Assembly: GCA_029260495.1 (NCBI GenBank)
Contig: JAJDDD010000020.1
Coordinates: 1 to 64,000, forward strand
Direction: 5' to 3'
DNA from: Phycisphaerales bacterium
GTDB taxonomy: Bacteria; Planctomycetota; Phycisphaerae; Phycisphaerales; UBA1924
DNA: 64,000 nt
Part shown: positions 13,676 through 39,130 of the stretch, one piece after another
Layout: every line of letters starts with the position of its first letter
Numbering within the stretch: position 1 is the first letter of the stretch
Program-made: the position numbers and the translations under genes
The notes under the pieces: model-generated
Database searches by the model: none
Seen by the model: only the letters and a program-made list of their open reading frames with translations
Told to the model about the DNA's origin: nothing

Positions 13676-13718
13676 GCGTGATACTCTGGCAAGTTAGTGG
13701 GATTACGAAAAACCTTTA

Positions 13719-14909
13719 CTAGAAAGCAGTACTAGCCACGCCGAATGAAAATCGGAAGAACTGCCTGACTACGTCGACGATTGCGGTAGAGGGAGTTTGT
13801 TCGATAGTGATCGTGTCGCCTGCAGCGAGTCGGAGATTTTCTAGGCCATTTTGCTTTGCTTGGGAAATGCTTGCTTGAATCACGACTGGCTCTGGGCGGT
13901 TCTTTACCCGTCGAATCACATAGACTTTATCTGCCACCGGTGAGCTACGTCCGCCGGCCATCGCGATGGCGTCTAATAGATGAATGTCTTGATCTGTCGG
14001 AAGTTCAAAATTCCCTGGCTTTCGTACAAGTCCTGAAACATAAATGGCTTCTTCCACACGTGGCACGATTCGGACGACATCTCGATCGCTGAGCCTGGCT
14101 TCTTCACGACTCACCGAACGCCCGCTCGCGAGGTCGAGACGCAAGGTAGATTGATTGGGCCGTCGTGTTGCATAATTACCCATAACCTGCAAGGGAGAAT
14201 GCTGTCCTAATCCCTGATAAGCAGCAAGCTGAATTTCCTCTGCTTCGTTCGTGGTTGAGGCAGGCGCTTCGTTTTCGTTTGAAGCAAGACCGACCACGGA
14301 CTGTCGAATAATTTCTACTTCCGTACCCGCTTTGTCCGTCAACCCACCCGCAGCAGCAATCGCGCTCACTAAGTCGCTGCTGCCACGAGGTATTTCATGA
14401 ACACCTGGCTCGTTGACTGCTCCAAGAACCGTAATACGATTGACCGCCTTCAATTTAATTTCGACTGTGATGAGCGGATTTCGATACATTCCCCGTTGGA
14501 TTGCTAAGTTGGCAATATTCTGCCCCGCCTCAAGAGCTTCAAGCCCCGCAACTGGAACAGGACCAATAACAGGCACCAAGACTGTTCCGTCTTCGGCTAC
14601 ACGGGCTGCCACGGGACGGATTTTTTCGTCTTCTCTTCCGGTAGCAATGGTGAGCTCTAAGAGATCACTGGGGGCAATGATCGAGTCACTTGTGCCGGAG
14701 GAAGCTACACGGGAAAAGTCAATCTTTCGCTGACCGCTACTGGCCGTGGCACGAAATTCTGACGGCAATCCTCCGGCGCGATAGGCAGGCGACTGACATC
14801 CTGATGCCAACACGAGGATTACGAAGAGGAGAAGAGTGACTCCCCTTTTGGGTATCGTTACCGCAACAAAAGACGTTTTCGATTTCTTCTGGTCGAAGAT
14901 TCGGATCAT
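13719..14909 (-). CDS. Wza-type outer-membrane polysaccharide export lipoprotein (SLBB)
   Basis: This 396-residue exporter carries a lipoprotein signal peptide ending LASGC, with the acylated cysteine at residue 38. Downstream come a Poly_export domain (IAPSDLLELTI near residue 80, with VPVIGPVPVAG) and two SLBB-like beta-grasp regions (ITVLGAVNEPGVHEIP and IYVSGLVRKPGNFELP), the standard arrangement for Wza/BexD proteins that form the outer-membrane exit pore. The Wzc-type gene follows 43 bp downstream on the same strand, and the two products normally contact each other. The 272-bp gap upstream separates it from the dehydrogenase gene, so it may have its own promoter. Confidence 0.92.
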   Translation of the reverse strand: MIRIFDQKKSKTSFVAVTIPKRGVTLLLFVILVLASGCQSPAYRAGGLPSEFRATASSGQRKIDFSRVASSGTSDSIIAPSDLLELTIATGREDEKIRPVAARVAEDGTVLVPVIGPVPVAGLEALEAGQNIANLAIQRGMYRNPLITVEIKLKAVNRITVLGAVNEPGVHEIPRGSSDLVSAIAAAGGLTDKAGTEVEIIRQSVVGLASNENEAPASTTNEAEEIQLAAYQGLGQHSPLQVMGNYATRRPNQSTLRLDLASGRSVSREEARLSDRDVVRIVPRVEEAIYVSGLVRKPGNFELPTDQDIHLLDAIAMAGGRSSPVADKVYVIRRVKNRPEPVVIQASISQAKQNGLENLRLAAGDTITIEQTPSTAIVDVVRQFFRFSFGVASTAF

Positions 14910-15181: not shown

Positions 15182-16516
15182 CTATGCCTTCACGATCTTT
15201 TCACGACCGGCGACAACGTCACGCGTAGCATTTCTGGTATCAACGACTAGCTGAGAATGCTCTACAACGAAATCGTAGCTATAGTCATCGTGGTTGGTAG
15301 CAATGAGTACGCAATCTTGCTTCGAGAGGTACTCTGGAGTGAGCTCGTTGCTTGCCATATCGGGCAGATCATGTGCTCGCATTGCTGGCAGACGAGGCAC
15401 ATAGGGGTCGTTGTAAGTCACTTCAGCCCCTAGGGCCAAAAGTTGATCGATAAGGATGAAAGAGGGACTCTCTCGTGGATCGTCCACGTTAGGTTTATAA
15501 GCAACTCCTAGAACAGCGATTTTACTACCTCGCACAGGTTTGCCCGCATCGTTCAGCGCCTCACTAACACGGTTCAGAACGTACTGGGGCATGGATGAAT
15601 TGATTTCGCCTGCAAGTTCAATAAATCGCGTTGACATGCCATGCTTGCGAGCCACCCAACTGAGATAGAAGGGATCGATCGGAATACAATGTCCACCTAG
15701 CCCCGGGCCTGGGTAAAAGGCAGTGAAGCCGAAGGGTTTGGTTTTGGCTGCATCAATCACTTCCCAGACGTCAATCCCCATTCGATCGCAGAGAACTTTG
15801 AGCTCGTTAACAAGCGCGATATTCACGGCTCGGTAGGTGTTTTCCAGAATTTTGCAAGCCTCCGCGACTTCGCAAGACGAAACGGGCACGACTTCTGAAA
15901 CGGCTGTCTCGTAGAGATGCTCTGCGAGTCTACAACTAGGCTCATCATAGCCGCCAACTACTTTGGGTATTTTTGCCGCCGAGAAATCTGGATTTCCAGG
16001 ATCTTCTCGTTCGGGGCTGTAGGCCAAAAAGAAGTCTTTCCCGACCTCCAATCCCGAGCTAGCAAGTTCGGGCAAAACCACATCGCGAGTCGTTCCAGGA
16101 TAGGTGGTGCTTTCTAAAACAATAATCTGGCCAGGCCTCAGGATAGTTGCAATCGTCTGGACAGTAGAAACAACATAGCTAAGATCTGGATCACGTGTTT
16201 CTGTAAGAGGCGTCGGCACGCAGATCAATAGGGCATCGGCCTCGGCCAGAACTTGGGGATCGGTTGAGGCCTTAAACTGCTTACGTTCTAGCCAAGAAGT
16301 GAGCCATTCGGAGGGGAGGTGCCCTATATAACTCTCTCCTTGGTTGAGCTTATCAATCTTGGTTTGATCGACGTCGTAGCCAAGGGTCTGGAAACCGGCT
16401 TCGACAAATGCATGCACCAATGGCAAACCCACATAACCAAGGCCGATGACCCCAATGGTCGCTTTTTTTTCAATGATCCGGCTCTTCAAGGTCTCGAATG
16501 GTGTTATTTTGGGCAT
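15182..16516 (-). CDS. wbpA: UDP-N-acetylglucosamine 6-dehydrogenase (WbpA type)
   Basis: This NAD-dependent enzyme oxidises C6 of UDP-GlcNAc (or a related UDP-HexNAc) to the uronic acid, the first step towards UDP-2,3-diacetamido uronic acids. It has an N-terminal Rossmann motif GVIGLGYVGLPLV and the catalytic cysteine in GPGLGGHCIPIDPFYLSW; the IDPFYL form is characteristic of WbpA/TviB rather than of UDP-glucose dehydrogenase. The ATG at 16,516 is preferred over one 24 bp upstream because AAGGGAAG sits nine bases before it. The length of about 444 residues is normal. It is divergent from the epimerase gene, and the later pathway steps are encoded in the rightward block. Confidence 0.9.
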   Translation of the reverse strand: MPKITPFETLKSRIIEKKATIGVIGLGYVGLPLVHAFVEAGFQTLGYDVDQTKIDKLNQGESYIGHLPSEWLTSWLERKQFKASTDPQVLAEADALLICVPTPLTETRDPDLSYVVSTVQTIATILRPGQIIVLESTTYPGTTRDVVLPELASSGLEVGKDFFLAYSPEREDPGNPDFSAAKIPKVVGGYDEPSCRLAEHLYETAVSEVVPVSSCEVAEACKILENTYRAVNIALVNELKVLCDRMGIDVWEVIDAAKTKPFGFTAFYPGPGLGGHCIPIDPFYLSWVARKHGMSTRFIELAGEINSSMPQYVLNRVSEALNDAGKPVRGSKIAVLGVAYKPNVDDPRESPSFILIDQLLALGAEVTYNDPYVPRLPAMRAHDLPDMASNELTPEYLSKQDCVLIATNHDDYSYDFVVEHSQLVVDTRNATRDVVAGREKIVKA

Positions 16517-16603
16517 GACTATGCTTCCCTTGGGATTCACTACACAATATACGAAATGCAGTCGGAAGTCAGAGCTTATCGGGCTTTGCCCGGGCTGTCG
16601 ACC

Positions 16604-16681: not shown

Positions 16682-17617
16682 ATGAAAAAGTATCTTGTAA
16701 CCGGTGGTGCTGGATTTATTGGGTCGCATATTGCCACCGCATTGGTCGAGCGAGGCGATTCAGTGCGGGTTTTAGACAATTTGAGCACGGGAACGAAAGC
16801 GAATCTCGCTCACCTCGGAGGAAAAGTCGACTTAATCGAGGGCGATCTTCTCGACCGCAGTGCCGTCGACCAAGCGGTCGAAGGAGTCGACGTCGTCTAT
16901 CATCAGGCCGCTTTAGCGTCGGTGCCCCGTAGTGTGCTCAAACCCCTTGATACGAACGCTGCCTGCGTCACCGGGACACTGAATGTGTTGGATGCCTCGA
17001 AAGAAGCTGGTGTTGGCCGCGTGGTCTATGCAGGCTCGAGCAGTGCCTACGGCAATCAGCCCCACATGTCGAAGCGCGAGAGCGACTTAGCAATGCCACT
17101 CTCGCCTTACGCAGCGGCTAAATTGGCTGGCGAACTCTACTGCCGAGCTTTTACAGCGACTTATGGGTTGGAAACCGTGGTGATTCGGTACTTCAACGTA
17201 TTTGGCCCGCGACAAGACCCTAAGAGCGAGTACTCGGCAGTGATCCCTTTGTTTGTGACAGCAATGCTAGCGGGGAAACGCCCAACCGTATTTGGAGATG
17301 GGCTGCAATCGCGCGATTTCACTTACATCGATAATGTGGTTGCAGGAAATCTGGCCGCCGCAGACGCCCCCAATGCGGCGGGCAAGGTGTTTAACGTCGC
17401 TTGCGGACGTCAGTTTAGTCTCTTAGATTTGCTAGCATCAATAAACCGCGTACTAGAAACCAACATTGAACCGATTTTTGCCGACGCACGCGCGGGCGAT
17501 GTCAAAGAAAGCCTAGCTGATATCACCGCCGCGAGAGGCGTACTCGGATATGAGCCAGTTGTCAGTTTCGAAGAGGGGCTACGGAGATCGATTGAATACT
17601 ATCGGTCGCTGGTTTAG
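16682..17617 (+). CDS. NAD-dependent UDP-sugar epimerase (GalE/WbpP-like)
   Basis: This is a 311-residue extended SDR enzyme. It has the Gly-rich cofactor loop [10 protein letters not shown] near the N-terminus, a [12 protein letters not shown] segment, a catalytic serine context AGSSSAYG and the Y-x-x-x-K pair in [22 protein letters not shown] follows as in UDP-hexose or UDP-N-acetylhexosamine 4-epimerases. TAGGGTAGG just before the ATG is a good ribosome-binding site. It opens the rightward block and shares the divergent promoter region with wbpA. Whether it acts on UDP-GlcNAc, UDP-GlcNAcA or UDP-Glc cannot be decided from motifs. Confidence 0.88.
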
Positions 17618-17719: not shown

Positions 17720-18712
17720 ATGAATTTCGGTCTCATTGGAGCAGCAGGTTTCATTGCACCCAAGCATATCAAGGCAATCCACGACACGGGAAATTCGCTC
17801 GTTGCTGCAGCCGACCCTCATGACTGCGTGGGAAGACTCGATAGCTTCTTTCCCGACGCACGTTTTTTTACTGAGATCGAGCGATTTGATCGTTATCTAG
17901 AAAAGTGTCGTCGTAGTACCGAAGAAAACCGTGTTCGATACGTGAGCATTTGCTCTCCGAACTACCTACATGATGCGCATGTTCGTTTAGCGTTACGAGT
18001 CAAGGCGGACGCAATTTGCGAAAAGCCGTTAGTGATATCACCATGGAACCTAGACGCCCTTGAGGAGCTAGAGGAAGAACACGGGCAGCGAGTTTACAGC
18101 GTATTGCAGCTTCGCCTGCTACCTTCGCTCATCAAGTTGAAAGCTGAATTAGAAGCTCAGACGGCGAATCAGCGTGCCGATGTCTGCCTAACCTACATCA
18201 CTCGACGAGGCCGTTGGTACGACGCTTCGTGGAAAGGTTCGCCTGAGAAATCGGGCGGAGTAGCGCTCAACATTGGCATTCACTTTTTCGACCTTTTGCA
18301 TTGGTTGTTCGGCGAAGTCGAGCAAAGCAATGTCCATCTTCGACGTTCGCGCCAAATGGGCGGGACGCTCGAATTCGAACGAGCCCGAGTGCGGTGGTTT
18401 CTTTCTACAGATGCCAATGACCTTCCGGACAAAGTAGTCGAGGAGGGCGGTTATGCTTATCGCTCGATGACCTACGACGGGCAGGAAATTGAATTCTCTG
18501 GCGGATTCAAAGATCTACACACACGTGTGTATGAGGAAATACTGGCGGGACGTGGCACCGGCATTCGTGAGACTCGCCCTGCAATTGAAATTGCCCACAC
18601 GATCAACCGGTCCAAGATAAAAATGAATCTGTCCGATGCCCATCCACTCGTGTCTCGAGTTTCGACAGTGAGCATGCCATTGATGGCTACCAGTGCTAGC
18701 AAAGTCGCCTGA
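17720..18712 (+). CDS. wbpB: Gfo/Idh/MocA oxidoreductase, WbpB/WlbA type
   Basis: This 330-residue NAD-dependent enzyme is predicted to oxidise C3 of UDP-GlcNAcA to give the 3-keto sugar. The N-terminus reads FGLIGAAGFIAPKHIKAI, the WlbA/WbpB variant of the Rossmann loop, and CEKPLVISPWNLDAL carries the conserved E-K-P motif. GVALNIGIHFFDLLHWLFG is the family's C-terminal active-site helix with the conserved His. AAGGAAA lies seven bases before the ATG. The next two genes encode the transaminase and acetyltransferase that complete the same pathway, which makes this assignment firmer than the domain alone would allow. Confidence 0.9.
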   Translation: MNFGLIGAAGFIAPKHIKAIHDTGNSLVAAADPHDCVGRLDSFFPDARFFTEIERFDRYLEKCRRSTEENRVRYVSICSPNYLHDAHVRLALRVKADAICEKPLVISPWNLDALEELEEEHGQRVYSVLQLRLLPSLIKLKAELEAQTANQRADVCLTYITRRGRWYDASWKGSPEKSGGVALNIGIHFFDLLHWLFGEVEQSNVHLRRSRQMGGTLEFERARVRWFLSTDANDLPDKVVEEGGYAYRSMTYDGQEIEFSGGFKDLHTRVYEEILAGRGTGIRETRPAIEIAHTINRSKIKMNLSDAHPLVSRVSTVSMPLMATSASKVA

Positions 18713-18805: not shown

Positions 18806-19408
18806 ATGGATGGCACTTCAAGATTTGTAGTTCACGAATCGTCCTACCTTGATGAAGATGTGATTGTCGGTGATGGCACCTCGATCTGGCATTTCTGCCA
18901 CGTCCTTAGCGGTTCTCGAATCGGAGAACGATGTCGCATCGGACAAAACGTGGTCATCGGACCTCGGGTAAAAATAGGCAGCAACGTCAAAATACAAAAT
19001 AACGTATCAGTGTACGAAGGGGTGACGTTGGAAGATGACGTCTTTTGTGGTCCTTCGATTGTTTTCACAAATATCAATACCCCGCGATCTGCCTTTCCAC
19101 GAAATCGAAGCGAAGACAATTTGCCCACTCTAGTGAAACGTGGGGCCAGTATCGGCGCGAACGCCACGATTGTGTGTGGCAACACAATCGGTCGGCACGC
19201 TTTGATTGGCGCAGGATCGGTGATTACCAAGGATGTGCCGGACCATGCCATCGTCTATGGAAACCCAGCTCGACAGCATGGCTGGGCGTGCGAGTGCGGA
19301 TTGAGTTTAACGTTTCAGGTAAAAGTCGCCGTTTGCTCGGATTGCGGTAGACGCTTTCAGGAAACGGATACTGGTAAGATCAGGCCGCAAAGTCAGGCAG
19401 TGGCATAG
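18806..19408 (+). CDS. wbpD: Left-handed beta-helix N-acetyltransferase, WbpD/WlbB type
   Basis: This 200-residue acyltransferase is built from hexapeptide repeats (IGERCRIGQNVVIGPRVKIG and following). The IWHFCHVLSGSRIG opening and the FTNINTPRSAFPRN loop are hallmarks of WbpD/WlbB enzymes, which acetylate the 3-amino group of UDP-GlcNAc3NA. Four cysteines near the C-terminus (CECG...CSDCG) could bind zinc; I do not know this as a standard family feature. AGGGAAG precedes the ATG. The aminotransferase gene follows after 18 bp, consistent with one transcript. Confidence 0.92.
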   Translation: MDGTSRFVVHESSYLDEDVIVGDGTSIWHFCHVLSGSRIGERCRIGQNVVIGPRVKIGSNVKIQNNVSVYEGVTLEDDVFCGPSIVFTNINTPRSAFPRNRSEDNLPTLVKRGASIGANATIVCGNTIGRHALIGAGSVITKDVPDHAIVYGNPARQHGWACECGLSLTFQVKVAVCSDCGRRFQETDTGKIRPQSQAVA

Positions 19409-19426: not shown

Positions 19427-20608
19427 GTGATTCCACTCTGTGATCTAAAACAGCAATACCTCCAAATTAAGGAGGAAATCGATGCCATCATGCAGGAAGT
19501 TGCTGCTTCGGGGTACTTTATTTTGGGGCCACAGGTAAAGGCGTTTGAGCAAGAAATGGCCCACTACTGCGGTTGCAAATATGCGATTGGTGTCGGCAGT
19601 GGCACCGACGCGCTGCACCTCTCACTCCGTGCCATGGAGATCGGCCCGGGCGACGAAGTGATCACCACGCCTTTTACTTTTATCGCGACGACCGAAGCAA
19701 TTGGTATGGTAGGCGCGACACCGGTGTTCGTTGACATTGATCCGCGTACTTTTAATATCGATGTCCAACAAATCGAAGCGGCTATCACGCCACACACAAG
19801 GGCTATTTTGCCGGTGCATCTATACGGCCAACCCTGCGAGATGGATGCGATCATGGAAATCGCAAGCCAGCATTCACTGCATGTGATTGAAGATGCCGCT
19901 CAGGCAATAGGAGCTACTTACAAAGACCGCAAGGTGGGGACCTTTGGAACAACCGGGTGTTTCAGCTTTTTTCCGAGCAAGAACTTGGGCTGCTTTGGTG
20001 ATGGCGGAATGGTTGTGACCAATAATAAGAAGATTTATGAGCAGGTCGAAATGCTACGTCGCCACGGTGGCAGGGTGAAGTATCATCACTCTGAACTTGG
20101 GCTCAACAGCAGGTTAGATGAACTTCAAGCAGCCATTCTCCGGGTAAAGCTTCGCCACCTCGACTCATGGAACCGTTTGCGCCGCAAACATGCCTACAAG
20201 TACAACCAACTTTTGACCGAAGTGCCAGAGGTCCAACAGCCTAGAGAGATTGGCTCGCATGGAATCACCTCCCCTGTGGCATCTCGAGTTACAGGAGAGC
20301 TGATCGAAGCTGTTTACCATCAATACACGGTACTCGTCGAAGACCGTGAGACCGTTCAATCTGAGTTGGGCAAGGCCAACATCAGTAGCGCAATTTACTA
20401 CCCGGTTCCGCTCCACCTTCAAGAAGTACACCATGATTTGCAATTTGCGCTAGGTTCGTTCCCCGTCGCCGAACATGCCAGCAACCATTGCTTGAGCCTG
20501 CCGATGTTTCCAGAGCTGCAGGAAACCCAGCAGGAATATATCGCCGGAAAGATGCGTGGGAGCAGTCGTTCAAGCCAATTTGATTCGGAAAACAAAAAGG
20601 CTGGGTAA
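19427..20608 (+). CDS. wbpE: DegT/DnrJ aminotransferase, WbpE/WlbC type
   Basis: This 393-residue PLP enzyme is predicted to transaminate the 3-keto product of WbpB. The internal aldimine lysine lies in FFPSKNLGCFGDGG, and EDAAQAIGA carries the PLP ring-stacking and Asp region; GSGTDALHL is the phosphate-binding loop. The start is GTG with AGGAG eleven bases upstream. Wedged between wbpD and the flippase, it completes a WbpB-WbpD-WbpE triplet; with WbpA across the divergent promoter this suffices for UDP-2,3-diacetamido-2,3-dideoxy-D-glucuronate. A WbpI-type 2-epimerase was not seen. Confidence 0.92.
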   Translation: MIPLCDLKQQYLQIKEEIDAIMQEVAASGYFILGPQVKAFEQEMAHYCGCKYAIGVGSGTDALHLSLRAMEIGPGDEVITTPFTFIATTEAIGMVGATPVFVDIDPRTFNIDVQQIEAAITPHTRAILPVHLYGQPCEMDAIMEIASQHSLHVIEDAAQAIGATYKDRKVGTFGTTGCFSFFPSKNLGCFGDGGMVVTNNKKIYEQVEMLRRHGGRVKYHHSELGLNSRLDELQAAILRVKLRHLDSWNRLRRKHAYKYNQLLTEVPEVQQPREIGSHGITSPVASRVTGELIEAVYHQYTVLVEDRETVQSELGKANISSAIYYPVPLHLQEVHHDLQFALGSFPVAEHASNHCLSLPMFPELQETQQEYIAGKMRGSSRSSQFDSENKKAG

Positions 20609-20708
20609 ATATAACTGCCGATCCTGATTTGCCCGAAGAGAAAAACTCAATCAGCGCTAGTCTACTCCCCGCCCGCCCTTGACAGCGACATGACGAAATT
20701 GCCATCGA

Positions 20709-21983
20709 ATGATACCTTCAAAAATACAAGGCGTTCCCGTGCTGAAGTTCGTCTGGCCGTATTTATCCTCTGCGATTGTGCTGGTATGCGGATTGCTTGT
20801 CTACTTTCTCGCCGCGCGGCAATTTGGAATTGAGGGATTTTCGGAATACGCTCTTTCACGACGCTCCGTCTCGCTTTTGCAACCGGTACTATTTCAAGGA
20901 TTTGGCATAGCTCTATCTCGGCAGGTTGCTAAGGCGGAATCTATTTCAGGTAGCAGATCGCCCTTCTCCTATCTACTTGCGACCATAACGATATTCTCAG
21001 TGGTACTCCTTGCCATAGGCGCGGTTTCTTTTTTTTATGCGTCTACTATGTCAAAGGTTTTCTTTGGCTCCGAAGCTTACCACCACTGTATAGGCCCGAT
21101 AGTGTTTGTGCTTCTTGGCTGTATGTTGCATTGTATCGCATGGCCCTACTGGCAGGGAAAAATGCGAATCGCTCAGGCTTGTGTTTTAGAGTCACTCAAT
21201 ATCGGAATACTTCCTCTGGCGGCCTTTGCCGTTGGAGACAGTCCTGCGGATATTCTTTGGTGGACGGGCTGTTTCACGACAATCTGCTCCGCTGGAGCGA
21301 TCTTGTGGATCGTTTACAATGAGTGGAGGCCAACAACGTTGTTGCGCGAGCATACGAATGACCTTTTTCAATATGCAATTCCAAGGATTCCGGGAGCGTT
21401 CGCTTTAGCCGCATTATTATCGCTTCCCGCAACGATCTGTGCTCATGTTGCCGATGTTCGCATTGCCGGTTTTGTCGCATTCGGTTGCTCGCTGCTAGGC
21501 ATGGCGGGGTCGCTTATATCTCCCTTGGGTATCGTGCTACTGCCTCACAGCACGAAAATGATGGCAAATGGTAGAGTCCGTGATATCAAGCGTCTTGTTC
21601 CCAGGCTATTGGGAATTGGCATCGGTGTTTCTCTTATCGTTGTGTTCGTTGTAGAACTCTGTGCAAAACCTGCCGTCGCTTTGTTTATGAGCTCAGAGGA
21701 TGCTGATCTAGTTAGCATAATTCGCCTTATGATTTGCTCCGCTATCCCGTTCTTAATCTACATATCCTTGCGAAGTGTGTTAGATGGCGTAACGCGCAAG
21801 GCCCTCAATTCAAAAAACTGCGTTTTGGCACTATTCTCATTGCTGGTGTTCTTAGCTGTTTCGTATAGCCTGGGGGGAGGGGTTAACCTGATTATTGCTG
21901 GCTCCATAGGCTCGATGTGCATACTGGCAATGCTAACTCTATTCGAAACATATCGCGTTCTGAAAAGGCCCCAGACTGAGTAG
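20709..21983 (+). CDS. Wzx-like polysaccharide flippase/transporter
   Basis: This 424-residue polytopic membrane protein has about twelve hydrophobic segments (for example YLSSAIVLVCGLLVYFLAA near the N-terminus and a final IIAGSIGSMCILAMLTLF) and a charged loop after the first pair. The pattern fits the MOP-superfamily Wzx flippases that move lipid-linked repeat units across the inner membrane, although sequence conservation in this family is low. Its place between sugar-nucleotide genes and a Wzy-like gene supports the call. The start ATG is internal to the run of genes with 100 bp before it. Confidence 0.75.
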   Translation: MIPSKIQGVPVLKFVWPYLSSAIVLVCGLLVYFLAARQFGIEGFSEYALSRRSVSLLQPVLFQGFGIALSRQVAKAESISGSRSPFSYLLATITIFSVVLLAIGAVSFFYASTMSKVFFGSEAYHHCIGPIVFVLLGCMLHCIAWPYWQGKMRIAQACVLESLNIGILPLAAFAVGDSPADILWWTGCFTTICSAGAILWIVYNEWRPTTLLREHTNDLFQYAIPRIPGAFALAALLSLPATICAHVADVRIAGFVAFGCSLLGMAGSLISPLGIVLLPHSTKMMANGRVRDIKRLVPRLLGIGIGVSLIVVFVVELCAKPAVALFMSSEDADLVSIIRLMICSAIPFLIYISLRSVLDGVTRKALNSKNCVLALFSLLVFLAVSYSLGGGVNLIIAGSIGSMCILAMLTLFETYRVLKRPQTE

Positions 21984-22103
21984 TGACGTCAGCGCCCATT
22001 TTTTTATTTTTTGGTTCGACTTCGGATAAACTTGGCTACTGTACGTTCCTTCTAGCAAAGGGCTATCACTATCCGATCTAATTACCTATTTCAATCTAAG
22101 CCT

Positions 22104-23426
22104 TTGCAAGCCCAAAGTAAATTGACTGTGCCCCGCCCTGACTATGCAATGCTTAGCGCCAAAGTAGCTGGTGCTACAACAGCATTTTTTTTGCTTGTTG
22201 GTCGCTGGAATCCAGAACGACTTCTAGGGATCGAATCTCAACGATACTTTGGACTGAATCGTTCCATGCTCCTAGAGCCTCGCCAATGGGTCCTACCGAT
22301 ACTCGTATTCACCGCTCTGCTGATAAAATTCCCCCGACGACGCTTAGTAACAAAGCAGGATCTGGCGGCATCTCACTATGGCAGGTCAGCTTTCGGATAT
22401 CTTGTATTGCTATACCTATACATGATGTGTTCCGTGGCGTGGGCACCCGAACTTGACCTTAGCCTTCTGAAAGCCTACGACACCTTTCTTACCTTTGGCG
22501 CACTAATAGTGATTGGCCTTTGGCACCTATCTACCGATGCAGAGCTGTTTCATCGGGCTTTCTGGAAATCATTGGTGTTCTTGACCGGGATTTTGATGCT
22601 GTGTGCTTTGATCTCACTAGGTAGCGGAAGACTTGCTGTCTTGGGCGGTGGACCGAATGTTTTTGCGAGGCTAATGTTCTTATTCGCTGCAGGGTGTATG
22701 GGCTTATCACAACGACGCAACTTCATGCAACTGTTTCTTGCGGTGATTGCAATAGCCTTGGTTGTTCTTTCAGGTTCCCGTGGAGGAATGTTGGCTTCGG
22801 CAATTGGGGCCTTGGTCTATCTCTGGGCGGACAGAACTAGAATTTCTTCGAAACTCTTTCTCGTCACCGGCGGAATGGCTGTAGGGGTCTTACTGCTTTT
22901 CCTTACCCCATTGGGTAATCGAGTCTACGAAACGTTCTCTTATCGAATCATCGAGCTTACCCTTCAGGATGGCTATACCTCTGAACGTGACATCTTGGTC
23001 GAGGAGGCTATTGGAATTTGGAAAGACTACCCAGTTTGTGGCACAGGCATCTCCGGGTGGGCTGCTTTGAAACTTGCAGCAGACGAAAGTAATAGCACGC
23101 ATCCTCATAACCTATTCTGTGAATTGCTGTGTGAAGGGGGTGTCATTGCTGTCTGCTTGCTGGTGGTGACGATATGGAAGTTTTTGCAATATGCGATTCG
23201 AATCCACTGGCGATTGCACATCCCTAGCCTAGCATGCGCGGCAATGTTTCTCGTGGCGAGTCAATTCAGTGGCGATTTCTTCGACAGTCGAGGGGTATTT
23301 ATCTGTGCGATGCTCTCTTCGTTCCCTTGTTCAATGAAGGCGAGAAACATCGCAGGCATGACTAAACTGACATCGAATCACACAAAAGTGACGAATTCTC
23401 GACGTTTCCAAAGTGCTGTTTGGTAG
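22104..23426 (+). CDS. Wzy/O-antigen ligase-like membrane protein
   Basis: This is a polytopic protein of up to 440 residues with ten to twelve predicted membrane helices and a periplasmic loop containing YPVCGTGISGW and STHPHNLFCELLCEGG. The H-P-H-N-x-x-x-E element is characteristic of the Wzy_C/WaaL family. The start is uncertain: the frame opens with TTG at 22,104, while the first ATG (15 codons later) also gives a sensible first helix; no clear ribosome-binding site decides it. It probably polymerises or ligates the repeat unit made by this locus, alongside the TPR-bearing homologue at 8,579. Confidence 0.78.
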   Translation: MQAQSKLTVPRPDYAMLSAKVAGATTAFFLLVGRWNPERLLGIESQRYFGLNRSMLLEPRQWVLPILVFTALLIKFPRRRLVTKQDLAASHYGRSAFGYLVLLYLYMMCSVAWAPELDLSLLKAYDTFLTFGALIVIGLWHLSTDAELFHRAFWKSLVFLTGILMLCALISLGSGRLAVLGGGPNVFARLMFLFAAGCMGLSQRRNFMQLFLAVIAIALVVLSGSRGGMLASAIGALVYLWADRTRISSKLFLVTGGMAVGVLLLFLTPLGNRVYETFSYRIIELTLQDGYTSERDILVEEAIGIWKDYPVCGTGISGWAALKLAADESNSTHPHNLFCELLCEGGVIAVCLLVVTIWKFLQYAIRIHWRLHIPSLACAAMFLVASQFSGDFFDSRGVFICAMLSSFPCSMKARNIAGMTKLTSNHTKVTNSRRFQSAVW

Positions 23427-23492
23427 CATCGCACTTTTGCGATACAACAATCGGAGCAAAATGTCCACCGTTGTCCTTTGGGTACTTCAACT

Positions 23493-24344
23493 ATGAATAA
23501 CCTATCGCCCGAACAGATCGTCTCCGATTTGAGAGAGCTCGGCCTAGGTCCTACTGACAAGGTTCTCGTGCGAGCTGATATGGGAAAAATTGGTCGAATG
23601 AAACCAAACCCCAAACGCATGTTGATTGATGCTTTGCTAGAGGTTGTTGGTAATGAAGGTGCCATTATTGGGCTTTCTTTTACTAAAACGCAAACCCTAT
23701 TCCGAAGAAGTAAGGCTTGGCCCTTTACAAAAGACGAGCAGCCGATAACTGGTGCTTTTGCCAAGCAACTGTTGGCGTACCCCGGTGCATATCGATCGTC
23801 CCATCCAACAAATTCATTTGTGGCAATTGGAAATTTTCGAGAGGCAATTGAAAATCACAGCTCTCGAAAACACTGCTTTGAACCAATGTCACATTTGATA
23901 GATCAAAATGGAAAGATGCTACTAATTGGATGTACATATTCCGGACCTGGATTTAGCACCGTCCATCTGGCTCAACACGCTTTGGGATACTCCACCAAGA
24001 ATTTTATTTCTAATCTAATAGGTCGCTATCACTGGGATGAAAATTCCGGGGCATTAAGTTGGTATAGCAAAAAGGACATACCAGGATGCAGCATGGGCTT
24101 TGCGAAATTTTACCCCTACTATGAAGAAGCCCGTATTTTAAAAAAGGGGAAGATTGGAAATGCAGAAGCCTTTCTTGTTGATGCAAGCAGCGCCTATAAA
24201 ATAGAACACGCCATATTGAAGCAAAACCCTAAGTTTGCATTGTGCGACCGCGACGAATGTGAATCTTGCCGGTTATTCGTAACGCTCAAATTACTAGAGC
24301 CAGTGCGTTATGCCAAAAGTCGATTAAAAAGGGTTGCTGGGTAA
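23493..24344 (+). CDS. AAC(3)-family N-acetyltransferase
   Basis: This protein of about 283 residues resembles aminoglycoside 3-N-acetyltransferases and their sugar-modifying relatives, which move an acetyl group from acetyl-CoA to an amino group. The family shape is visible in DKVLVRADMGKIGR, the HPTNSFVAIG segment (with the conserved H-P-x-x-S-x-x-A) and the GCTYSGPGFSTVHLAQHAL helix that carries the catalytic His. The ATG at 23,493 is chosen over an upstream TTG. Its stop overlaps the start of the next gene (TAATG), implying translational coupling. This pair looks richer in A+T than its neighbours, hinting at separate acquisition. In a polysaccharide locus it more likely modifies an amino sugar than confers drug resistance. 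Confidence 0.82.
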   Translation: MNNLSPEQIVSDLRELGLGPTDKVLVRADMGKIGRMKPNPKRMLIDALLEVVGNEGAIIGLSFTKTQTLFRRSKAWPFTKDEQPITGAFAKQLLAYPGAYRSSHPTNSFVAIGNFREAIENHSSRKHCFEPMSHLIDQNGKMLLIGCTYSGPGFSTVHLAQHALGYSTKNFISNLIGRYHWDENSGALSWYSKKDIPGCSMGFAKFYPYYEEARILKKGKIGNAEAFLVDASSAYKIEHAILKQNPKFALCDRDECESCRLFVTLKLLEPVRYAKSRLKRVAG

Positions 24345-25630
24345 TGGCCCATTTTGCAATTGTCTGCGACAGAGAGGATATTACACCAAGCCATTCCGTT
24401 CCTCTTGCCGGTTTTGGGGCTGGTGTCGGATTTTCAGATGTCCATGACAAACTCGAAATAAACGCAGCGATCATCTACCAAGGACAATCCAAAGTTGCCC
24501 TGATTTCAATCGACGCATTGTTTGTAGGCTGGGAGTTGCGCAGAATTGCCGAACGCGAGCTCTCAGAGTTTCCGCCAGAAGCAATATTATTTGGTGCCAG
24601 CCACACCCATTTTGCCCCAGCAACCGACCGGGTACTGCCACTTCTTGGGAAAGTAGACGAAGACCATTTTGCATCAGTTTGTGAAAAATTAGTGTGTCTG
24701 CTCCGGCGATTGCAGAACGCTGAACGCATTGATGTCGCGCTGAAATATACCAATGCCGAAGCCCATCACTCAATAAATAGACGAATGAAGCGACTATGGT
24801 GGCCCAGAAAAAAACCTTTCCCGCACTTGAAATTCAACTACTACTCACTTAATCCAAATGAAAGCGGGCTGAAAAACGAAACCGTACATACGGTTGGTTT
24901 TTTCCCGATAGACAACGATGAAATTTCATCCACACCAATATTGGTACTGTGGTCCTATACATGCCATCCGGTCAGCCAACCTTTTCCAAACTGCGTCAGT
25001 GCAGATTACCCCGGCGTTGTCCGAGAAACTTTAAGAAACACCTTTGGCAAAGATCTAGCATGTCTGTTTTTCCAAGGATTTACCGGTGATATCCGCCCAC
25101 GAATTATTGCCCGGTCACGATCCTATAAATCGCGGCTGAAAAAGATTCTTCTGCATGGTGATCAATTTGGTTCTTTTACTCCTGAAACTTGGGATGACTG
25201 GGCAGGCTCACTGGCAAACGTCGTGACATCCACGGTTCTTGAAAATGGTGTCTCAACAGAACGCTACGTCAACATTTCGGGAACCATGCTGGCAACAGGC
25301 ACTTATTTACCACTGTCAGAGCTACAGGATAAAGATTGTGACCGTCCTGATATGCATTTCCAACAAATTGTTTTTGGGCAGGACATCGCAATTGTTGCCG
25401 TCTCAGCAGAGGCTGTTCAGGGAGTTGTTGCACTTCTTCCAGATTCAGCTCAAATTCAGATACCAATTGGCTACACAGATCACACCTTTGGTTACTTGCC
25501 AACAAACGAAATTGTGAAGGAGGGCGGTTACGAGGCGCACGAATTCCGTGAAGCATTCTCGTTACCGGGTCGTTATATTCCAGATGTGGATACTGTATTG
25601 CGCGCTCAATTCAACAAATTATCTGGATAG
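24344..25630 (+). CDS. Neutral ceramidase-like amidohydrolase
   Basis: This protein of about 428 residues resembles the N-terminal catalytic domain of neutral/alkaline ceramidases, zinc amidases that cut N-acyl bonds. FGASHTHFAP matches the H-x-H zinc motif, YTCHPVSQPF and VSADYPGVVRET match the second metal and substrate region, and FQGFTGDIRPR matches the G-x-x-G-D-x-x-P segment around the active site. No signal peptide is visible and the C-terminal immunoglobulin-like domain of classical ceramidases is absent, so it should be cytoplasmic. The ATG at 24,344 overlaps the previous stop as TAATG; an upstream in-frame start inside the previous gene is less likely. A coupled acetyltransferase suggests the natural substrate is an N-acylated sugar. 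Confidence 0.78.
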   Translation: MAHFAIVCDREDITPSHSVPLAGFGAGVGFSDVHDKLEINAAIIYQGQSKVALISIDALFVGWELRRIAERELSEFPPEAILFGASHTHFAPATDRVLPLLGKVDEDHFASVCEKLVCLLRRLQNAERIDVALKYTNAEAHHSINRRMKRLWWPRKKPFPHLKFNYYSLNPNESGLKNETVHTVGFFPIDNDEISSTPILVLWSYTCHPVSQPFPNCVSADYPGVVRETLRNTFGKDLACLFFQGFTGDIRPRIIARSRSYKSRLKKILLHGDQFGSFTPETWDDWAGSLANVVTSTVLENGVSTERYVNISGTMLATGTYLPLSELQDKDCDRPDMHFQQIVFGQDIAIVAVSAEAVQGVVALLPDSAQIQIPIGYTDHTFGYLPTNEIVKEGGYEAHEFREAFSLPGRYIPDVDTVLRAQFNKLSG

Positions 25631-25812
25631 GAAATCAAATTGGTGTCGACGAGGTAGTATTTTTTGAAAGATGCCCTCTAGTGATCTTTGCGACAGGAAC
25701 GTTACGCAGAAAAACTTTCCTGCACTGCTATTTTACGTCAATGATTGCTGGTAAGTAAACTTTTGCAGGTAGATCAATAGTGCGGAAATGCTTCTTGAGA
25801 CCGGGATTTTTC

Positions 25813-25841
25813 TTGACGCCTTAGTGTTGCTTCCGTAATTC
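25813..25841 (+). promoter_or_regulatory. Candidate promoter of the glycosyltransferase-transketolase segment
   Basis: TTGACG at 25,813-25,818 and TAATTC at 25,836-25,841 are 17 bp apart, about 40 bp before the glycosyltransferase ATG, in a 252-bp gap that otherwise shows no gene. Confidence 0.5.
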
Positions 25842-25882
25842 ACAGCCCTCCTGAATCACTTCATCGCTAACGAATTTACGAC

Positions 25883-27157
25883 ATGAATATCTGGCTAATC
25901 ACCATCGGGGAACCGTTACCAACCGACGGCAGCAACGAACGACTTCTGAGAACAGGAATTCTAGCAGATTACTTGAACCATCAAGGCCACGAAGTGCTGT
26001 GGTGGACCTCGTCGTTCGACCATTCCCGAAAACGGCAGCGCACAGACCGCGACAAACGAATCAGCGTCCGTGACCGATACGACATTTTCTTACTTGCCGC
26101 AAACAGCTACTCAAGCAATGTCTCTTTGCGTCGCATGAGAAACCATCGGGCCGTTGCTCGAAAATTCAGGACGCTGGCTCCATACGAACCCTTGCCCGAT
26201 GCCATCATTTGCTCTTGGCCTCTTGTTGAGCTTTGCACCCAGGCAGTCCAGTTTGGGAACGCTCGAAACGTGCCCGTGGTGCTCGATTTTCGCGACATGT
26301 GGCCAGACGCGATAGTCGACCTCGTCCCAGGCTTCGTGCGTCCTGCAGCCAAGTTGGCGCTGCGTTCAACCTATCGAGATGCCAGATATGCGGCCTCTCA
26401 CGCAACGGCTATCACCGGCATTACGGAGAAGATTGTCGACTGGGGGCTCGGTTTCGCAGACCGCCCACAATCGGGCCTGGATCAGGCTTTTCCAATGGGG
26501 TATCGAAAACAAGCCGTCGGAGAGGAGGATCTCGAAGAGGGCATCAGGTTCTGGCGTTCCCAGGGCATTGATGAAGGGAAGTCCGAATTTGTCGTGTGCT
26601 TTTTTGGCTGCATCGGACGGCACTTCGAAATCAAGCCTATTATCAAAGCGGCCCGTCGTCTGGAACTATCGAAACGCCGCTTCAAATTTGTGCTGTGTGG
26701 CGATGGTCCTCACTTGGCTCAGTGGCGACGATTGGCAGCGGGATGCCCCAACATCGTCTTGCCAGGATGGGTCGATGCAGCAAAGATTCGCTCCCTAATG
26801 AGCCTTTCCTCAGCAGGCTTGGCTCCCTACCACAGCAGCTGGGATTTTACGATCAGCCTTCCCAACAAGCCGATTGAATATCTTTCCGCGGGACTGCCCG
26901 TCATCTCTAGCTTGCAAGGTGAACTAGCGGCGTTGCTAGCAAAAAACGACTGTGGCTTGACTTATCAGAACGGGTCGGCTGATGATCTTGTCCGGGTTTT
27001 GAGCGATTGCTACGATAGCCGAGAGTACTGTGCCAGGATGGCCAAAAACGCTGCTGCTCTTTACCGCGAGCAATTTGTCGCCGAGACCGTTTACGGCCAA
27101 ATGTGCGATTACTTGACACAGCTTGCCCGCAACAAGAATGGGCAGCGCGTCACATGA
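25883..27157 (+). CDS. Glycosyltransferase family 4 (WbuB-like)
   Basis: This 424-residue GT-B glycosyltransferase is predicted to add a sugar to the lipid-linked acceptor at the cytoplasmic face. The N-terminus WLITIGEPLPTDGSNERLLRTG is the acceptor-side loop seen in WbuB-like GT4 enzymes; FVVCFFGCIGRHFEIKPIIKAA opens the donor domain and GLAPYHSSWDFTISLPNKPIEYLSAG carries the donor-binding E-x-x-x-G region (K-P-I-E-Y-L-S-A-G-L-P-V). It is the only free-standing classical glycosyltransferase I can identify in the locus, so the repeat unit is either short or needs enzymes encoded elsewhere. Its 3' end lies close to, or overlaps, the start of the next gene. Confidence 0.88.
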   Translation: MNIWLITIGEPLPTDGSNERLLRTGILADYLNHQGHEVLWWTSSFDHSRKRQRTDRDKRISVRDRYDIFLLAANSYSSNVSLRRMRNHRAVARKFRTLAPYEPLPDAIICSWPLVELCTQAVQFGNARNVPVVLDFRDMWPDAIVDLVPGFVRPAAKLALRSTYRDARYAASHATAITGITEKIVDWGLGFADRPQSGLDQAFPMGYRKQAVGEEDLEEGIRFWRSQGIDEGKSEFVVCFFGCIGRHFEIKPIIKAARRLELSKRRFKFVLCGDGPHLAQWRRLAAGCPNIVLPGWVDAAKIRSLMSLSSAGLAPYHSSWDFTISLPNKPIEYLSAGLPVISSLQGELAALLAKNDCGLTYQNGSADDLVRVLSDCYDSREYCARMAKNAAALYREQFVAETVYGQMCDYLTQLARNKNGQRVT

Positions 27158-27182
27158 GAAACAATCGCAAGGAAGCAAAGTT

Positions 27183-28628
27183 GTGGTCAAAAGGATCTTT
27201 GACATCGTCTGCAGCGCAATGGGGATACTGGCCCTAAGTCCGGTGTTGTTGCTGCTTGCAATCACGATCAAAATGGGATCTAAGGGATCGGTATTCTATC
27301 GAGGTAAGCGGGCGGGGCTTCACGGCAAACCATTTCATATCTTCAAGTTCCGCAGTATGGTCACCGATGCCGAGCAGTTGGGCGGCCCTTCGACCAGCGA
27401 TGAAGACCCTCGCATCACGGGCGTTGGAAATTTCATGCGGAAGCTTAAGCTCGATGAGTTGCCACAATTACTAAACGTACTAGTTGGGGAAATGAGTCTC
27501 GTTGGGCCTCGTCCCCAAGTGTTAGACTACGTTTCTCGCTATAACGAAAAAGAACAAGCGGTATTGCAGATGCGACCTGGAATCACCGATTGGGCCTCGA
27601 TATGGAATTCGGATGAAGGGGCTATCTTGACCGGGTGTGCTGACCCAGACAAAGCCTACGATGAGCTGATACACCCCACAAAGATGAAGCTCCAGTTACT
27701 TTATGCTGGGCAGCATAGTTTGTGGGTCGATTTGAAAATTCTAGCGTACACGCTCTATGGCCTTATACACAGGGGTTGGATTCCGCCAGAAATCCGGCGC
27801 TATCCCATGCCAGGCAAAACGAGCAACACCGACTTGCAAGGTTACGAAACAGTGACCGAGCTGCCAGGTGCTGCGGTTAATTCTGAACAGATCAAGATGC
27901 TCAATACACGTTATGGTTGGGCTGGTGAGTTGGCGGAGGGAAAGGAAGTTCTCGAAGTTGCCTGCGGCTCAGGGATTGGACTTGGACATCTTGCCACTCG
28001 AGCAAAACGGGTTGTGGGTGGAGACTACGACCCTAAGTTGACAGCAGTTGCCAAGAAGCAGTACGGCGGGCGTATTGAGGTGCAAGAGATGGACGCCCAG
28101 TCGCTTCCTTTCCCCGATGCTTCTTTTGACGTCGTCATGCTTTTCGAAGCAATCTACTACTTAGATCGTCCTGAATTGTTTGTGCAAGAGGCCCATCGCG
28201 TGTTGCGTCCGGGCGGATCCGTCTTAATTTGTTCTGCCAATCGCGAGCGACCTGATTTTAATGTGAGCCCGTTTAGCACTCAGTATTTCTCAGCAAAGGA
28301 GCTGCGAGAGCTATTAGAAAGAAACGGTTTTAGCGCAACTATTCACGCAGGTTTTCTGTTGGAGCCGCAAGGATGGAAGAATCGGAGTCGGCAAGCGGTT
28401 CGGACGGTTGCGGTCAAGTTGCGACTGATCCCTAAGACAATGAAGTGGAAGGCCCGTTTCAAACGGGTTTTCTTTGGCAAACTCCAATGCCTACCTACCG
28501 CGCTGGGACATCAATTATCAGAGAGAGAGCCGATGACAACAATTGATGTGACCCAGCCAGCAACCAACCACAAGGTGCTTTATGCTCTCGGGAATCGAGA
28601 GGCTGCGGCTAGTCGAGTGGCGGCCTAG
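27183..28628 (+). CDS. Phosphoglycosyl transferase (PglC/WcaJ type) fused to SAM-dependent methyltransferase
   Basis: This is a two-domain protein. The N-terminal part (about 200 residues) is a bacterial sugar transferase that starts a glycan by moving a phosphosugar to undecaprenyl phosphate: [21 protein letters not shown] is the re-entrant membrane helix, [32 protein letters not shown] and RPGITDWA are the family signatures. The C-terminal part has a class I methyltransferase core with [16 protein letters not shown] (SAM motif I), GGDYDPKL and a [11 protein letters not shown] motif. GTG at 27,183 is chosen because AAGGAAG lies just upstream and the protein then begins like other PglC enzymes; an in-frame ATG at 27,138 inside the previous gene is the alternative. 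Such a fusion is unusual. Confidence 0.85.
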
Positions 28629-28703
28629 CGAAGTACGAATTTAAATCTGTCGAGACCTCTGTCAATCCAATCACACCCGAATCATCCTGCCAAGGAGGGC
28701 ATC

Positions 28704-29840
28704 GTGGCGGCGACACCAAAAGTTCCTTTTTTCGACTATCCTGATGTCTTCTGCTCCGACGAAGAGCAGCTCATGGAGATTTTCTCGGATGTGGGACGTC
28801 GTGGAGCGTTCATTCAACAGCGGGATTTGAAAGAATTTGAAGGCCGACTTGCCGAGTATATTGGCGCAAAATACGTTCTGGGAATTGCCAATGCAACCGA
28901 TGCACTACACTTGGCTTTTCGCGCAATCGGAATTGGCGCGAAGGACGAAGTGATCTTCTGCTCGCACACGATGGTTGCGACCGCTGCGGCTGTACATTTC
29001 GCAGGTGGCACACCTGTCCCGGTGGATTGCCGCGAAGATCATTTGATTGATCCAGACGCAGTGAAGAGAGCGATTACTCCCCGCACCAAGGCGATCGTCC
29101 CGACGCAACTCAACGGTCGCACGGCGGACATGGATGCCTTACAAACGATCGCTGACGAACACGGGCTTGAGATCATTGAGGATTCGGCACAAGCACTAGG
29201 ATCGAAGTTTAAAGGCCGTTGTGCCGGGACGTTTGGCAAAGCAGGCTGCATTAGTTTCTATCCCGCGAAAACGCTAGGCTGCTTGGGAGATGGTGGTTGT
29301 GTGATTACCAACGATGATGAGATGCATCGCAAGCTACAGATGCTTCGTGACCATGGTCGGGGCGAAGATGGCGAAGTGCGGATGTGGGGCCTAAACTCGA
29401 GGCTAGATAACTTGCAGGCGGCCATACTCAATCGAAAACTTGATAGCTATGACCAGGCTGTTACACGGCGTCGGGAGGTCGCAGCGATCTATGACCAGCA
29501 ACTGACGGGTCTTTCGCAGCTTGCCTTGCCTCCTGCCCCCGACTCTCACCCCAGCCATTTCGATATATTTCAGAATTACGAAATCGAGGCAGAGCACCGC
29601 AACCAGCTGCAAGCCCACTTAAAGAGCAACGGTATAGGAACGCTTCTACCGTGGGGAGGAAAGGCGGTTCATCAATTTCGAAACTTAGGATTTTCTCAAG
29701 AACTACCGTTTACCAATAGGCTCTTCGACCGTGTGCTAATGCTTCCGCTGAATACCTCTTTAAGTGACGACGACGTCTTGTATGTATGCGGCAGCATACG
29801 GGAGTTCTATGCTGTGGAAAGAATTGCGGACGCGGCGTAG
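28704..29840 (+). CDS. DegT/DnrJ/EryC1/StrS sugar aminotransferase
   Basis: This 378-residue PLP-dependent enzyme transfers an amino group to a keto sugar nucleotide. The catalytic lysine is in SFYPAKTLGCLGDGG, IIEDSAQALGS holds the PLP contacts, and ANATDALHL is the phosphate loop. The start is GTG with AGGAGG seven bases before it. It is distinct from the WbpE-like enzyme at 19,427 and may act on a different sugar; the 4-keto product of the CapD-type dehydratase is a candidate. It opens a tight run with TylF-like and transketolase genes, whose joint function is unknown. Confidence 0.88.
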   Translation: MAATPKVPFFDYPDVFCSDEEQLMEIFSDVGRRGAFIQQRDLKEFEGRLAEYIGAKYVLGIANATDALHLAFRAIGIGAKDEVIFCSHTMVATAAAVHFAGGTPVPVDCREDHLIDPDAVKRAITPRTKAIVPTQLNGRTADMDALQTIADEHGLEIIEDSAQALGSKFKGRCAGTFGKAGCISFYPAKTLGCLGDGGCVITNDDEMHRKLQMLRDHGRGEDGEVRMWGLNSRLDNLQAAILNRKLDSYDQAVTRRREVAAIYDQQLTGLSQLALPPAPDSHPSHFDIFQNYEIEAEHRNQLQAHLKSNGIGTLLPWGGKAVHQFRNLGFSQELPFTNRLFDRVLMLPLNTSLSDDDVLYVCGSIREFYAVERIADAA

Positions 29841-29899
29841 ACACCGCCATAAAAACCGACATCCTCACAAATCGAAATGCCACCAAGATGGAGACCCTG

Positions 29900-30664
29900 A
29901 TGAGTGTAGCAACAACTACCAGAAACTTCCGAACGGAAAGCGAGCTTCAGGTAGGCGAGGCAATTGCCAACATTTTTGAAGCCTGCAGCGACAGTACCGA
30001 AGAAAAACTGGAGAATTTTCCTAAGTATGTGCGTCGACAGCATCTAAAGCGATTCTTGGCGCACTACGAAATCTTCAAGATGGCGCTGCCTGTGAAAGGG
30101 TCGGTTATTGAGTGCGGGGTCTTCCGAGGTTTCGGACTGATGTCTTGGGCGAAGCTGAGCACCATTCTCGAACCCGAGAATTTCACGCGACGCATTTATG
30201 GCTTCGATACCTTTAGTGGCTTTCCTTCCATCGACGACAAGGATGAGAACTTGGTGGCGTCCGACGTGGTGGCTCTACCGCATACTGGAGATCTCTCATC
30301 GAATTCCAAAAATGAACTGGAAGCTCTGGTCGATCAGTACGACAAAGATCGGTTTCTTGGTCACATGGACAAAGTTCACCTAGTTGAAGGCGATGCCAGC
30401 GAAACGATACCCAAGTTTGTTGAAGAGCATCCACACTTAGTTGTTAGCTTATTATTCTTGGATTTCGACCTCTATGAGCCCACCAAGACGGCGATCGAGC
30501 AACTTGTCCCGCGAATGCCGAAGGGAAGCATCCTGGCATTTGACGAACTAGATAACCCCATCTGGCCAGGTGAAACACAAGCGCTGATCGATACGCTGGG
30601 CATCAACAATGTCCAAATCGAGCGTCTACCGTGGGATCCCTATATTGGCTATGTAAGGATGTAA
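29900..30664 (+). CDS. TylF-like (macrocin O-methyltransferase family) methyltransferase
   Basis: This protein of about 254 residues belongs to the TylF family of SAM-dependent O-methyltransferases that act on sugars. GSVIECGVFRGFGLMSWAK is the SAM-binding loop, YGFDTFSGFPSID is the second motif and LFLDFDLYEPTKTAIEQL carries the acidic metal-binding residues typical of TylF. The ATG at 29,900 is chosen because GGAG lies six bases upstream; an ATG four codons earlier (29,888) is possible, and longer in-frame extensions into the previous gene are not credible. Only about 5 bp separate it from the transketolase pair, so all four genes from 28,704 are probably one transcript. Confidence 0.85.
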   Translation: MSVATTTRNFRTESELQVGEAIANIFEACSDSTEEKLENFPKYVRRQHLKRFLAHYEIFKMALPVKGSVIECGVFRGFGLMSWAKLSTILEPENFTRRIYGFDTFSGFPSIDDKDENLVASDVVALPHTGDLSSNSKNELEALVDQYDKDRFLGHMDKVHLVEGDASETIPKFVEEHPHLVVSLLFLDFDLYEPTKTAIEQLVPRMPKGSILAFDELDNPIWPGETQALIDTLGINNVQIERLPWDPYIGYVRM

Positions 30665-30669
30665 CCAAC

Positions 30670-32432: not shown

Positions 32433-32477
32433 CAGAAGCTACAAACTCTGTTTGCCGTAAAGAATTCTGCAAATAGG

Positions 32478-36490: not shown

Positions 36491-36495
36491 GAACA

Positions 36496-36596
36496 TTTCC
36501 ACAGCAAATCCTTGACACATCGACCGAAGGTGCGATTCAGAATTGATTCGCCGAGTTTAACCGATTTAGACTACGGTTGCGAATTTGCTGTGGAAA
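36496..36596 (-). promoter_or_regulatory. 15-bp inverted repeat in the 5' leader that could hide the ribosome-binding site
   Basis: ATTTGCTGTGGAAAT and its exact complement lie at 36,583-36,597 and 36,495-36,509, 73 bp apart, in the leader of the PEP-CTERM gene. The arm nearest the gene contains the GGAAA ribosome-binding sequence, so a folded leader would block translation. Confidence 0.45.
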
Positions 36597-36740
36597 TTAG
36601 TGTCTTTCATGGGGTTTTGAGCCGAATCTGCCTGAAAAACAAAGCTGGTCACGGCCTTTGACGGAGCAGGTTTTTTACCGCAGAGGTCGCTGAGAGCGCC
36701 GAGAAAACTTTTGCTATGCTATGGCAGAAGCAGCGAAAAA

Positions 36741-39092: not shown

Positions 39093-39130
<38 letters not shown>

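Follow-up and report, generated by a model that had tools for sequence, protein, structure and literature searches.

A ceramidase-fold protein clade in bacterial polysaccharide loci, with a tentative role as amino-sugar N-deacylase

Introduction

What would a ceramidase-like protein do inside a locus for polysaccharide assembly? The question is raised by the window, the whole stretch of 64,000 nucleotides of a Phycisphaerales bacterium analysed here (contig JAJDDD010000020.1), in which two overlapping genes, hereafter AAC and CER, lie among genes for glycan synthesis and export. An initial annotation had described their products as an AAC(3)-like acetyltransferase and a ceramidase-like amidase that could together swap the N-acyl group on an amino sugar of the repeat unit. 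Characterised ceramidases carry an export signal and a C-terminal domain, and we know of no tested activity besides ceramidase in the neutral-ceramidase family. Sugar N-deacylation in polysaccharide assembly is usually credited to other enzyme families. No literature linking ceramidase with Wzx, Wzy, O-antigen or exopolysaccharide clusters was found among the matches listed, which leaves its absence unproven.

The gene pair and its locus

A Wzy-like gene and a GT4 gene flank the pair, which belongs to a large polysaccharide locus. The features of this locus are (window coordinates):

11291..14909, minus strand: Wzc-like and Wza-like export genes
15182..16540, minus strand: nucleotide-sugar dehydrogenase, WbpA/WecC type
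16682..17617, plus strand: nucleotide-sugar epimerase (best NCBIfam match TviC, under its cut-off)
17720..18712, plus strand: Gfo/Idh/MocA oxidoreductase, WbpB-like by context
18806..19408, plus strand: hexapeptide acyltransferase, WbpD-like by context
19427..20608, plus strand: DegT/DnrJ/EryC1 aminotransferase (best NCBIfam match PseC, under its cut-off)
20709..21983, plus strand: Wzx-like flippase
22104..23426, plus strand: Wzy/O-antigen-ligase-like membrane protein
23493..24344, plus strand: AAC (gene 1), ATG 23493 to TAA 24344, 283 aa, Antibiotic_NAT (PF02522)
24342..24346, plus strand: TAATG stop/start overlap of AAC and CER, with one common base (the A)
24344..25630, plus strand: CER (gene 2), ATG 24344 to TAG 25630, 428 aa, neutral-ceramidase fold, catalytic domain only
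25883..27157, plus strand: GT4-type glycosyltransferase
27147..28628, plus strand: initiating sugar transferase (Bac_transf) and methyltransferase domain, one-frame fusion
28704..29840, plus strand: second DegT-family aminotransferase

The glycan setting claimed by the initial annotation is borne out by the family matches to Wzx-, Wzy-, Wza- and Wzc-like genes around the pair. The dehydrogenase, oxidoreductase, aminotransferase and acyltransferase of the locus resemble the WbpA/B/E/D set, which we take to be the maker of 2,3-diacetamido uronic acids. Two different O-antigen-ligase (Wzy_C) proteins, one of them of 895 aa, are encoded at 8579-11266 and 22104-23426. The run at 28704-32432 comprises, in order, a DegT aminotransferase, a TylF-type methyltransferase and a split transketolase-like pair (an N-terminal half, then pyrimidine-binding and C-terminal domains), and is possibly a pathway to an amino sugar that is branched or unusual. 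The gene of an 829-aa subtilisin-family (S8) protein, on the minus strand, marks the end of the locus (32478-34967).

AAC and CER overlap by a single base, as had been noted, and this suggests that they are co-translated. They had also been held to be more A+T-rich than their surroundings, and indeed their GC3 values (0.398 for AAC, 0.415 for CER) are the lowest two among the 17 locus genes measured and fall below every one of 176 background ORFs of at least 250 aa, sampled over 340 kb of this contig. The remaining 15 locus genes are low as well, at 0.46-0.60 against a background mean of 0.69. In a comparison of codon usage with the background ORFs AAC proved outlying (98.9th percentile of distance), CER less so (89.2nd). 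Joint import of AAC and CER is a fair inference from their low GC3 values, if no proof. On a larger scale, GC is about 0.45-0.55 at window positions 8000-42000 versus about 0.58-0.63 in the window's last 20 kb, a sign that the polysaccharide region may be atypical as a whole. Promoter- and terminator-like sites at 23300-26000 showed no excess over shuffled sequence, and a tandem-repeat scan of 20000-40000 gave a single row, outside AAC and CER.

The composition bears on an alternative in which CER and AAC act on separate sugars and became neighbours through one imported A+T-rich segment; AAC, or a derivative lacking the usual transferase activity, would serve the amine of the second DegT enzyme, and CER would act elsewhere. 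Such a division of labour is consistent with the two DegT aminotransferases and two acyltransferase-type genes of the locus, with the GC3 of AAC and CER being unlike that of their neighbours, and with a related CER that has no AAC in the Azospirillum region fetched (see below). The one-base overlap, however, argues against it through the co-translation that it suggests, and we regard this alternative as rather unlikely.

The ceramidase-like protein

CER alone has no NCBIfam match, and only insignificant ones in Pfam (0.035, a different family) and in the PDB sequence set (0.28); a single-protein scan of the genome contigs with it found no relative. Matches to CER are nevertheless present in 77 of the 298 class-sample genomes, its own counted, and a 25-row alignment of CER with class-sample relatives matches the neutral ceramidases 2zws (6.4e-39) and 4wgk (5.3e-34). 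PF04734 is matched by 24 of these 25 rows at E 0.01, the sole non-matching row being CER itself.

The fold predicted from the single sequence was not usable (pLDDT 32.5). The model used was built from ten sequences; it has a pLDDT of 70 and a pTM of 0.78, and is weak (pLDDT below 50) at residues 141-176, 209-214 and 250-303. Foldseek returned high scores for neutral ceramidases only (E 3.4e-18). In the VIA comparison the model aligned to the Pseudomonas ceramidase 2zws with a Z of 30.9 over 357 residues, at 3.2 A and 15% identity, the next unrelated fold having a Z of 4.2. Only residues 2-484 of 2zws are covered, without the C-terminal domain. Judged by the profile of its relatives and by its predicted fold, CER is a neutral-ceramidase (PF04734) catalytic domain.

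Active-site residues were compared in human numbering, which is chain position plus an offset of 98, at H194, H196, R257, H303, S354, E540, Y579 and Y591. By alignment, H87, H89, R146, H208, E356, Y384 and Y396 of CER correspond to human H194, H196, R257, H303, E540, Y579 and Y591; R146 and R251 were placed by sequence alignment only, because the model is weak there. We take residues 194, 303, 540 and 579 of human neutral ceramidase to be the zinc ligands. H87, H89, H208 and E356 are invariant in all 25 alignment rows. The review PMC6952831 names His196, Arg257, Tyr579 and Tyr591 as critical catalytic-pocket residues of the human enzyme, which are H89, R146, Y384 and Y396 in CER, and states that Ser354 stabilises Arg257. 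The active-site Ser is not kept, its position being occupied by Arg251 in CER. Retention of the zinc-site and pocket residues suggests that CER is an amidase.

The substitution of Ser354 leads to a different possibility, that hydrolysis has been lost or changed and that CER carries out some other reaction on the repeat unit, for example cleavage of an ester or lactam or synthesis of an amide. CER and three related proteins from the phylum Gemmatimonadota have Arg at this position, the Azospirillum protein has Ile, and the wider family varies, as would fit an altered reaction; but the remaining catalytic residues checked are all kept, and we think such a change quite improbable.

CER is like the neutral ceramidases of Pseudomonas aeruginosa (2zws) and human (ASAH2, 4wgk) in the fold of its catalytic domain and at H194/H196/R257/H303/E540/Y579/Y591. 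It differs from them in having neither a signal-like N-terminus nor a C-terminal domain, in the replacement of Ser354 by Arg, in the 15% identity of its structural alignment with 2zws, and in its setting in a glycan locus. The strongest 19-residue hydropathy mean near the N-terminus is 1.23 in CER (from residue 51) and 1.44 in AAC (from residue 43), and the comparison relatives L003, L007 and L009 reach 1.98, 2.41 and 1.57 from residues 5, 9 and 2. Judged by hydropathy only, neither protein of the pair has a signal-like N-terminus, in agreement with the initial annotation.

The ceramidase clade and its loci

The best named plasmid relative of CER is encoded on a megaplasmid of Azospirillum ramasamyi (28% over 97%, E 9e-35). 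A 41-row tree groups CER, this protein and the relatives at loci L104, L121 and L122, from three Gemmatimonadota-phylum genomes, as a five-member clade (support 100/99). It replaces a 36-row tree with long-branch rows, from which six rows (L076, L077, L015, L030, L065 and L018) were removed and to which eleven others were added. All five clade genes adjoin polysaccharide genes. The Azospirillum gene lies directly downstream of an oligosaccharide flippase gene, in a region that also contains a sugar transferase, two nucleotide-sugar dehydrogenases, two Gfo/Idh and three DegT proteins, an O-antigen ligase and a tyrosine autokinase. L104, a Gemmatimonadetes contig of genome G649 whose product matches CER at 37% (E 2e-73), has the gene order GT4-GT4-CER, and L121 (genome G760) has GT4 followed by CER, its GT4 being 84% identical to that of L104; both are short contigs (5.3 and 6.9 kb) with few neighbours and unsure CER starts. 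L122 carries genes for a nucleotidyltransferase, Wzx, a pectate-lyase-like protein, Antibiotic_NAT, a methyltransferase, CER, GT4, RmlC, RmlD, a Wzy-like protein (weak match), RmlB, an epimerase and Wzz. In three of the four other clade members the gene immediately before CER encodes a flippase or GT4, so that outside the window, too, proteins of this kind are encoded next to flippases and glycosyltransferases. The N-termini of the three members checked by hydropathy (window, Azospirillum, L122) are not signal-like. A clade of ceramidase-fold proteins in polysaccharide biosynthesis loci of distant bacteria is the firm new element of this analysis.

The clade has few members in the genomes searched. 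Seven of 298 genomes of G649's phylum match at E 1e-20; G649, G760 and G740 reach clade level and the next stands at 5.0e-32, and a class-level search centred on G740 yielded no new member (2 of 295 genomes, both already found). The window's phylum has matches in 17 of 392 genomes at E 1e-15, own genome counted (best other 3.5e-24), and the relatives of the window's genome in 9 of 121 at 1e-8, own again counted; the best other of these, 2.4e-36, is not near clade scores. We therefore reject the view that genomes close to the window's commonly carry the clade, the weaker matches lying far from the clade's own scores. Viral contigs searched with the clade gave no relative. Longer surroundings of nine other CER loci (L061-L066 and L075-L077), in seven stretches of 18-20 kb, one of 12 kb and one of 5 kb, were compared with the window-locus proteins only, and gave no match beyond single DegT or Gfo/Idh neighbours and the AAC of L077. 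Elsewhere in the family, a Chitinophagaceae contig carries six ceramidase-family ORFs within about 14 kb (L108:4262-18557).

The Antibiotic_NAT protein

AAC matches PF02522 (Antibiotic_NAT) over its full length (E 2.2e-28, 99.9 bits against a cut-off of 25) and has relatives in the PDB (E 5.8e-12); with this match, and with the profile and fold evidence for CER, both family names given by the initial annotation stand. Against the equivalog of AAC(3) aminoglycoside resistance, NF033082 (AAC_3), it scores 82.9 bits, under the curated cut-off of 270. PMC8956665 describes a catalytic dyad of His and Glu, both completely conserved in the sequences analysed there, within a T-x-hydrophobic-H-hydrophobic-A-E motif. 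The corresponding motif of AAC is S-T-V-H-L-A-Q: the dyad His is kept (His158) and the dyad Glu is replaced by Gln161. A 35-row comparison was made after removal of duplicate stretches and of matches no longer than about 200 residues. Of the 34 rows besides AAC, 33 keep that Glu, and all 34 have a His ahead of the S-S motif where AAC has Arg27. AAC is like the Antibiotic_NAT/AAC(3) family in its full-length match and its dyad His, and differs in the change of the dyad Glu to Gln, of His27 to Arg, and in falling under the AAC_3 cut-off. In a quick tree of AAC proteins no branch is longer than its terminal one (2.23), and its nearest group, weakly supported (89), is haloarchaeal and not the L122 protein.

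Because the dyad Glu is Gln and the conserved His is Arg, acetyl transfer by AAC is not to be assumed, and the replacement of the dyad Glu is evidence against the simple acetyl transfer that had been claimed for gene 1. Annotations of the Antibiotic_NAT type have been placed in glycan loci before: PMC8003790 tables an 'aminoglycoside 3-N-acetyltransferase' among polysaccharide-cluster genes of Porphyromonas gingivalis.

Recurrence of the pair

Of the four other clade loci, two of which (L104 and L121) are short contigs that give little view of the neighbourhood, one has both families close together: at L122 the Antibiotic_NAT gene is one gene away from CER and convergent, on the opposite strand. 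In the Azospirillum region no Antibiotic_NAT is annotated and none was found by profile in 31 kb. The single Antibiotic_NAT match in the genome of L104 (G649) lies on an unrelated contig; its candidacy as a glycan-locus AAC was rejected, the four other ORFs scanned on that contig being AMP-binding, luciferase-like, pyridine-nucleotide oxidoreductase and ATP-grasp. The genome of L121 (G760) has no such match. In the class sample, within flanks of up to 1.5 kb, an AAC partner occurs at none of the other 29 CER loci fetched, which were the best-scoring among many more matches, and a CER partner at one of the other 29 AAC loci fetched (of 30 matches).

That one is L077, where AAC and CER genes separated by 13 bases form an operon (L077:9763-11983) that adjoins a GH42-type (beta-galactosidase-type) glycosidase, a DUF4434 protein and an alpha-L-rhamnosidase. 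The operon lies in a degradation-type locus, and its CER, very divergent, belongs to a distant subfamily; a search at E 1e-30 found this CER-type protein in none of the 34 further genomes of the family. Both families are also present on the haloarchaeal plasmid islands L079, L080 and L082, kilobases apart, with sulfatases, PIG-L deacetylases, DegT and Gfo/Idh genes between them.

Such a pair could act by acyl swap, CER removing an N-acetyl group and AAC adding a different acyl group to the same amine. The overlap of the genes and their common, unusually low GC3 fit this view, as does the presence of both families in the L122 glycan locus, the L077 operon and, kilobases apart, the haloarchaeal carbohydrate islands. 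Against it stand the change of the AAC dyad Glu to Gln and of a His found in 34 of 34 relatives to Arg, the partner counts at the CER loci (0/29, the best of many more matches) and AAC loci (1/29), the restriction of the L077 CER type (0 of the other 34 family genomes at E 1e-30) and the AACs of window and L122 not being sisters in the quick tree. We consider the swap unlikely; the pairing is suggestive and not established.

Proposed function

Our own reading, a tentative one held with somewhat less than even confidence, is that CER is a cytosolic zinc N-deacylase acting on an amino sugar of the repeat unit in Wzx/Wzy assembly, with AAC as an accessory. A neutral-ceramidase-fold amidase would have been recruited into this assembly, with CER as the core of the module. 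The location and stage are suggested by the N-termini, not signal-like in three members, and by the Wzx and GT4 neighbours, which point to a cytosolic protein working on the precursor or the repeat unit. The fold, the kept active-site residues, the clade membership and the glycan-locus setting are computed results; the deacylation, its substrate, the order of the steps and the role of AAC we infer as follows. CER would strip the N-acyl group from the amino sugar before export, at the stage of the nucleotide-sugar precursor or else, on the lipid-linked unit, between GT4 addition of that sugar and flipping by Wzx, and the amine, free or re-acylated, would end up in the repeat unit. It is possible that AAC re-acylates the CER product by adding another acyl group to the freed amine; it may also serve another amine, or be a non-catalytic partner. 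Several points weigh against the deacylase reading: the replacement of Ser354 by Arg251, the weakness of the model where R146 and R251 lie, the inconsistent link with AAC among the clade loci, the short contigs and unsure CER starts of L104 and L121, and the family's record, in which ceramidase is the one tested activity known to us. The fuller claim, that an undescribed cytosolic branch of the neutral ceramidases deacylates amino sugars in Wzx/Wzy assembly and, in concert with an Antibiotic_NAT protein bearing a rebuilt active site, swaps the N-acyl group of a repeat-unit sugar, we regard as improbable.

Pairs of a GT4 glycosyltransferase and a PIG-L-type zinc deacetylase are familiar from mycothiol (MshA/MshB) and bacillithiol (BshA/BshB) synthesis. 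By analogy, L104 and L121 may be compared with them in having a gene of metal-deacylase type adjoining a GT4 gene, but CER has an unrelated fold and lies in a polysaccharide locus rather than in the synthesis of a small-molecule thiol.

Significance

The clade defined here, comprising the window, Azospirillum and three Gemmatimonadota-phylum genomes, can be tested as it stands. If our reading of CER is true, the ceramidase-fold superfamily would extend from lipids to glycans, and unannotated genes in exopolysaccharide loci would be explained.
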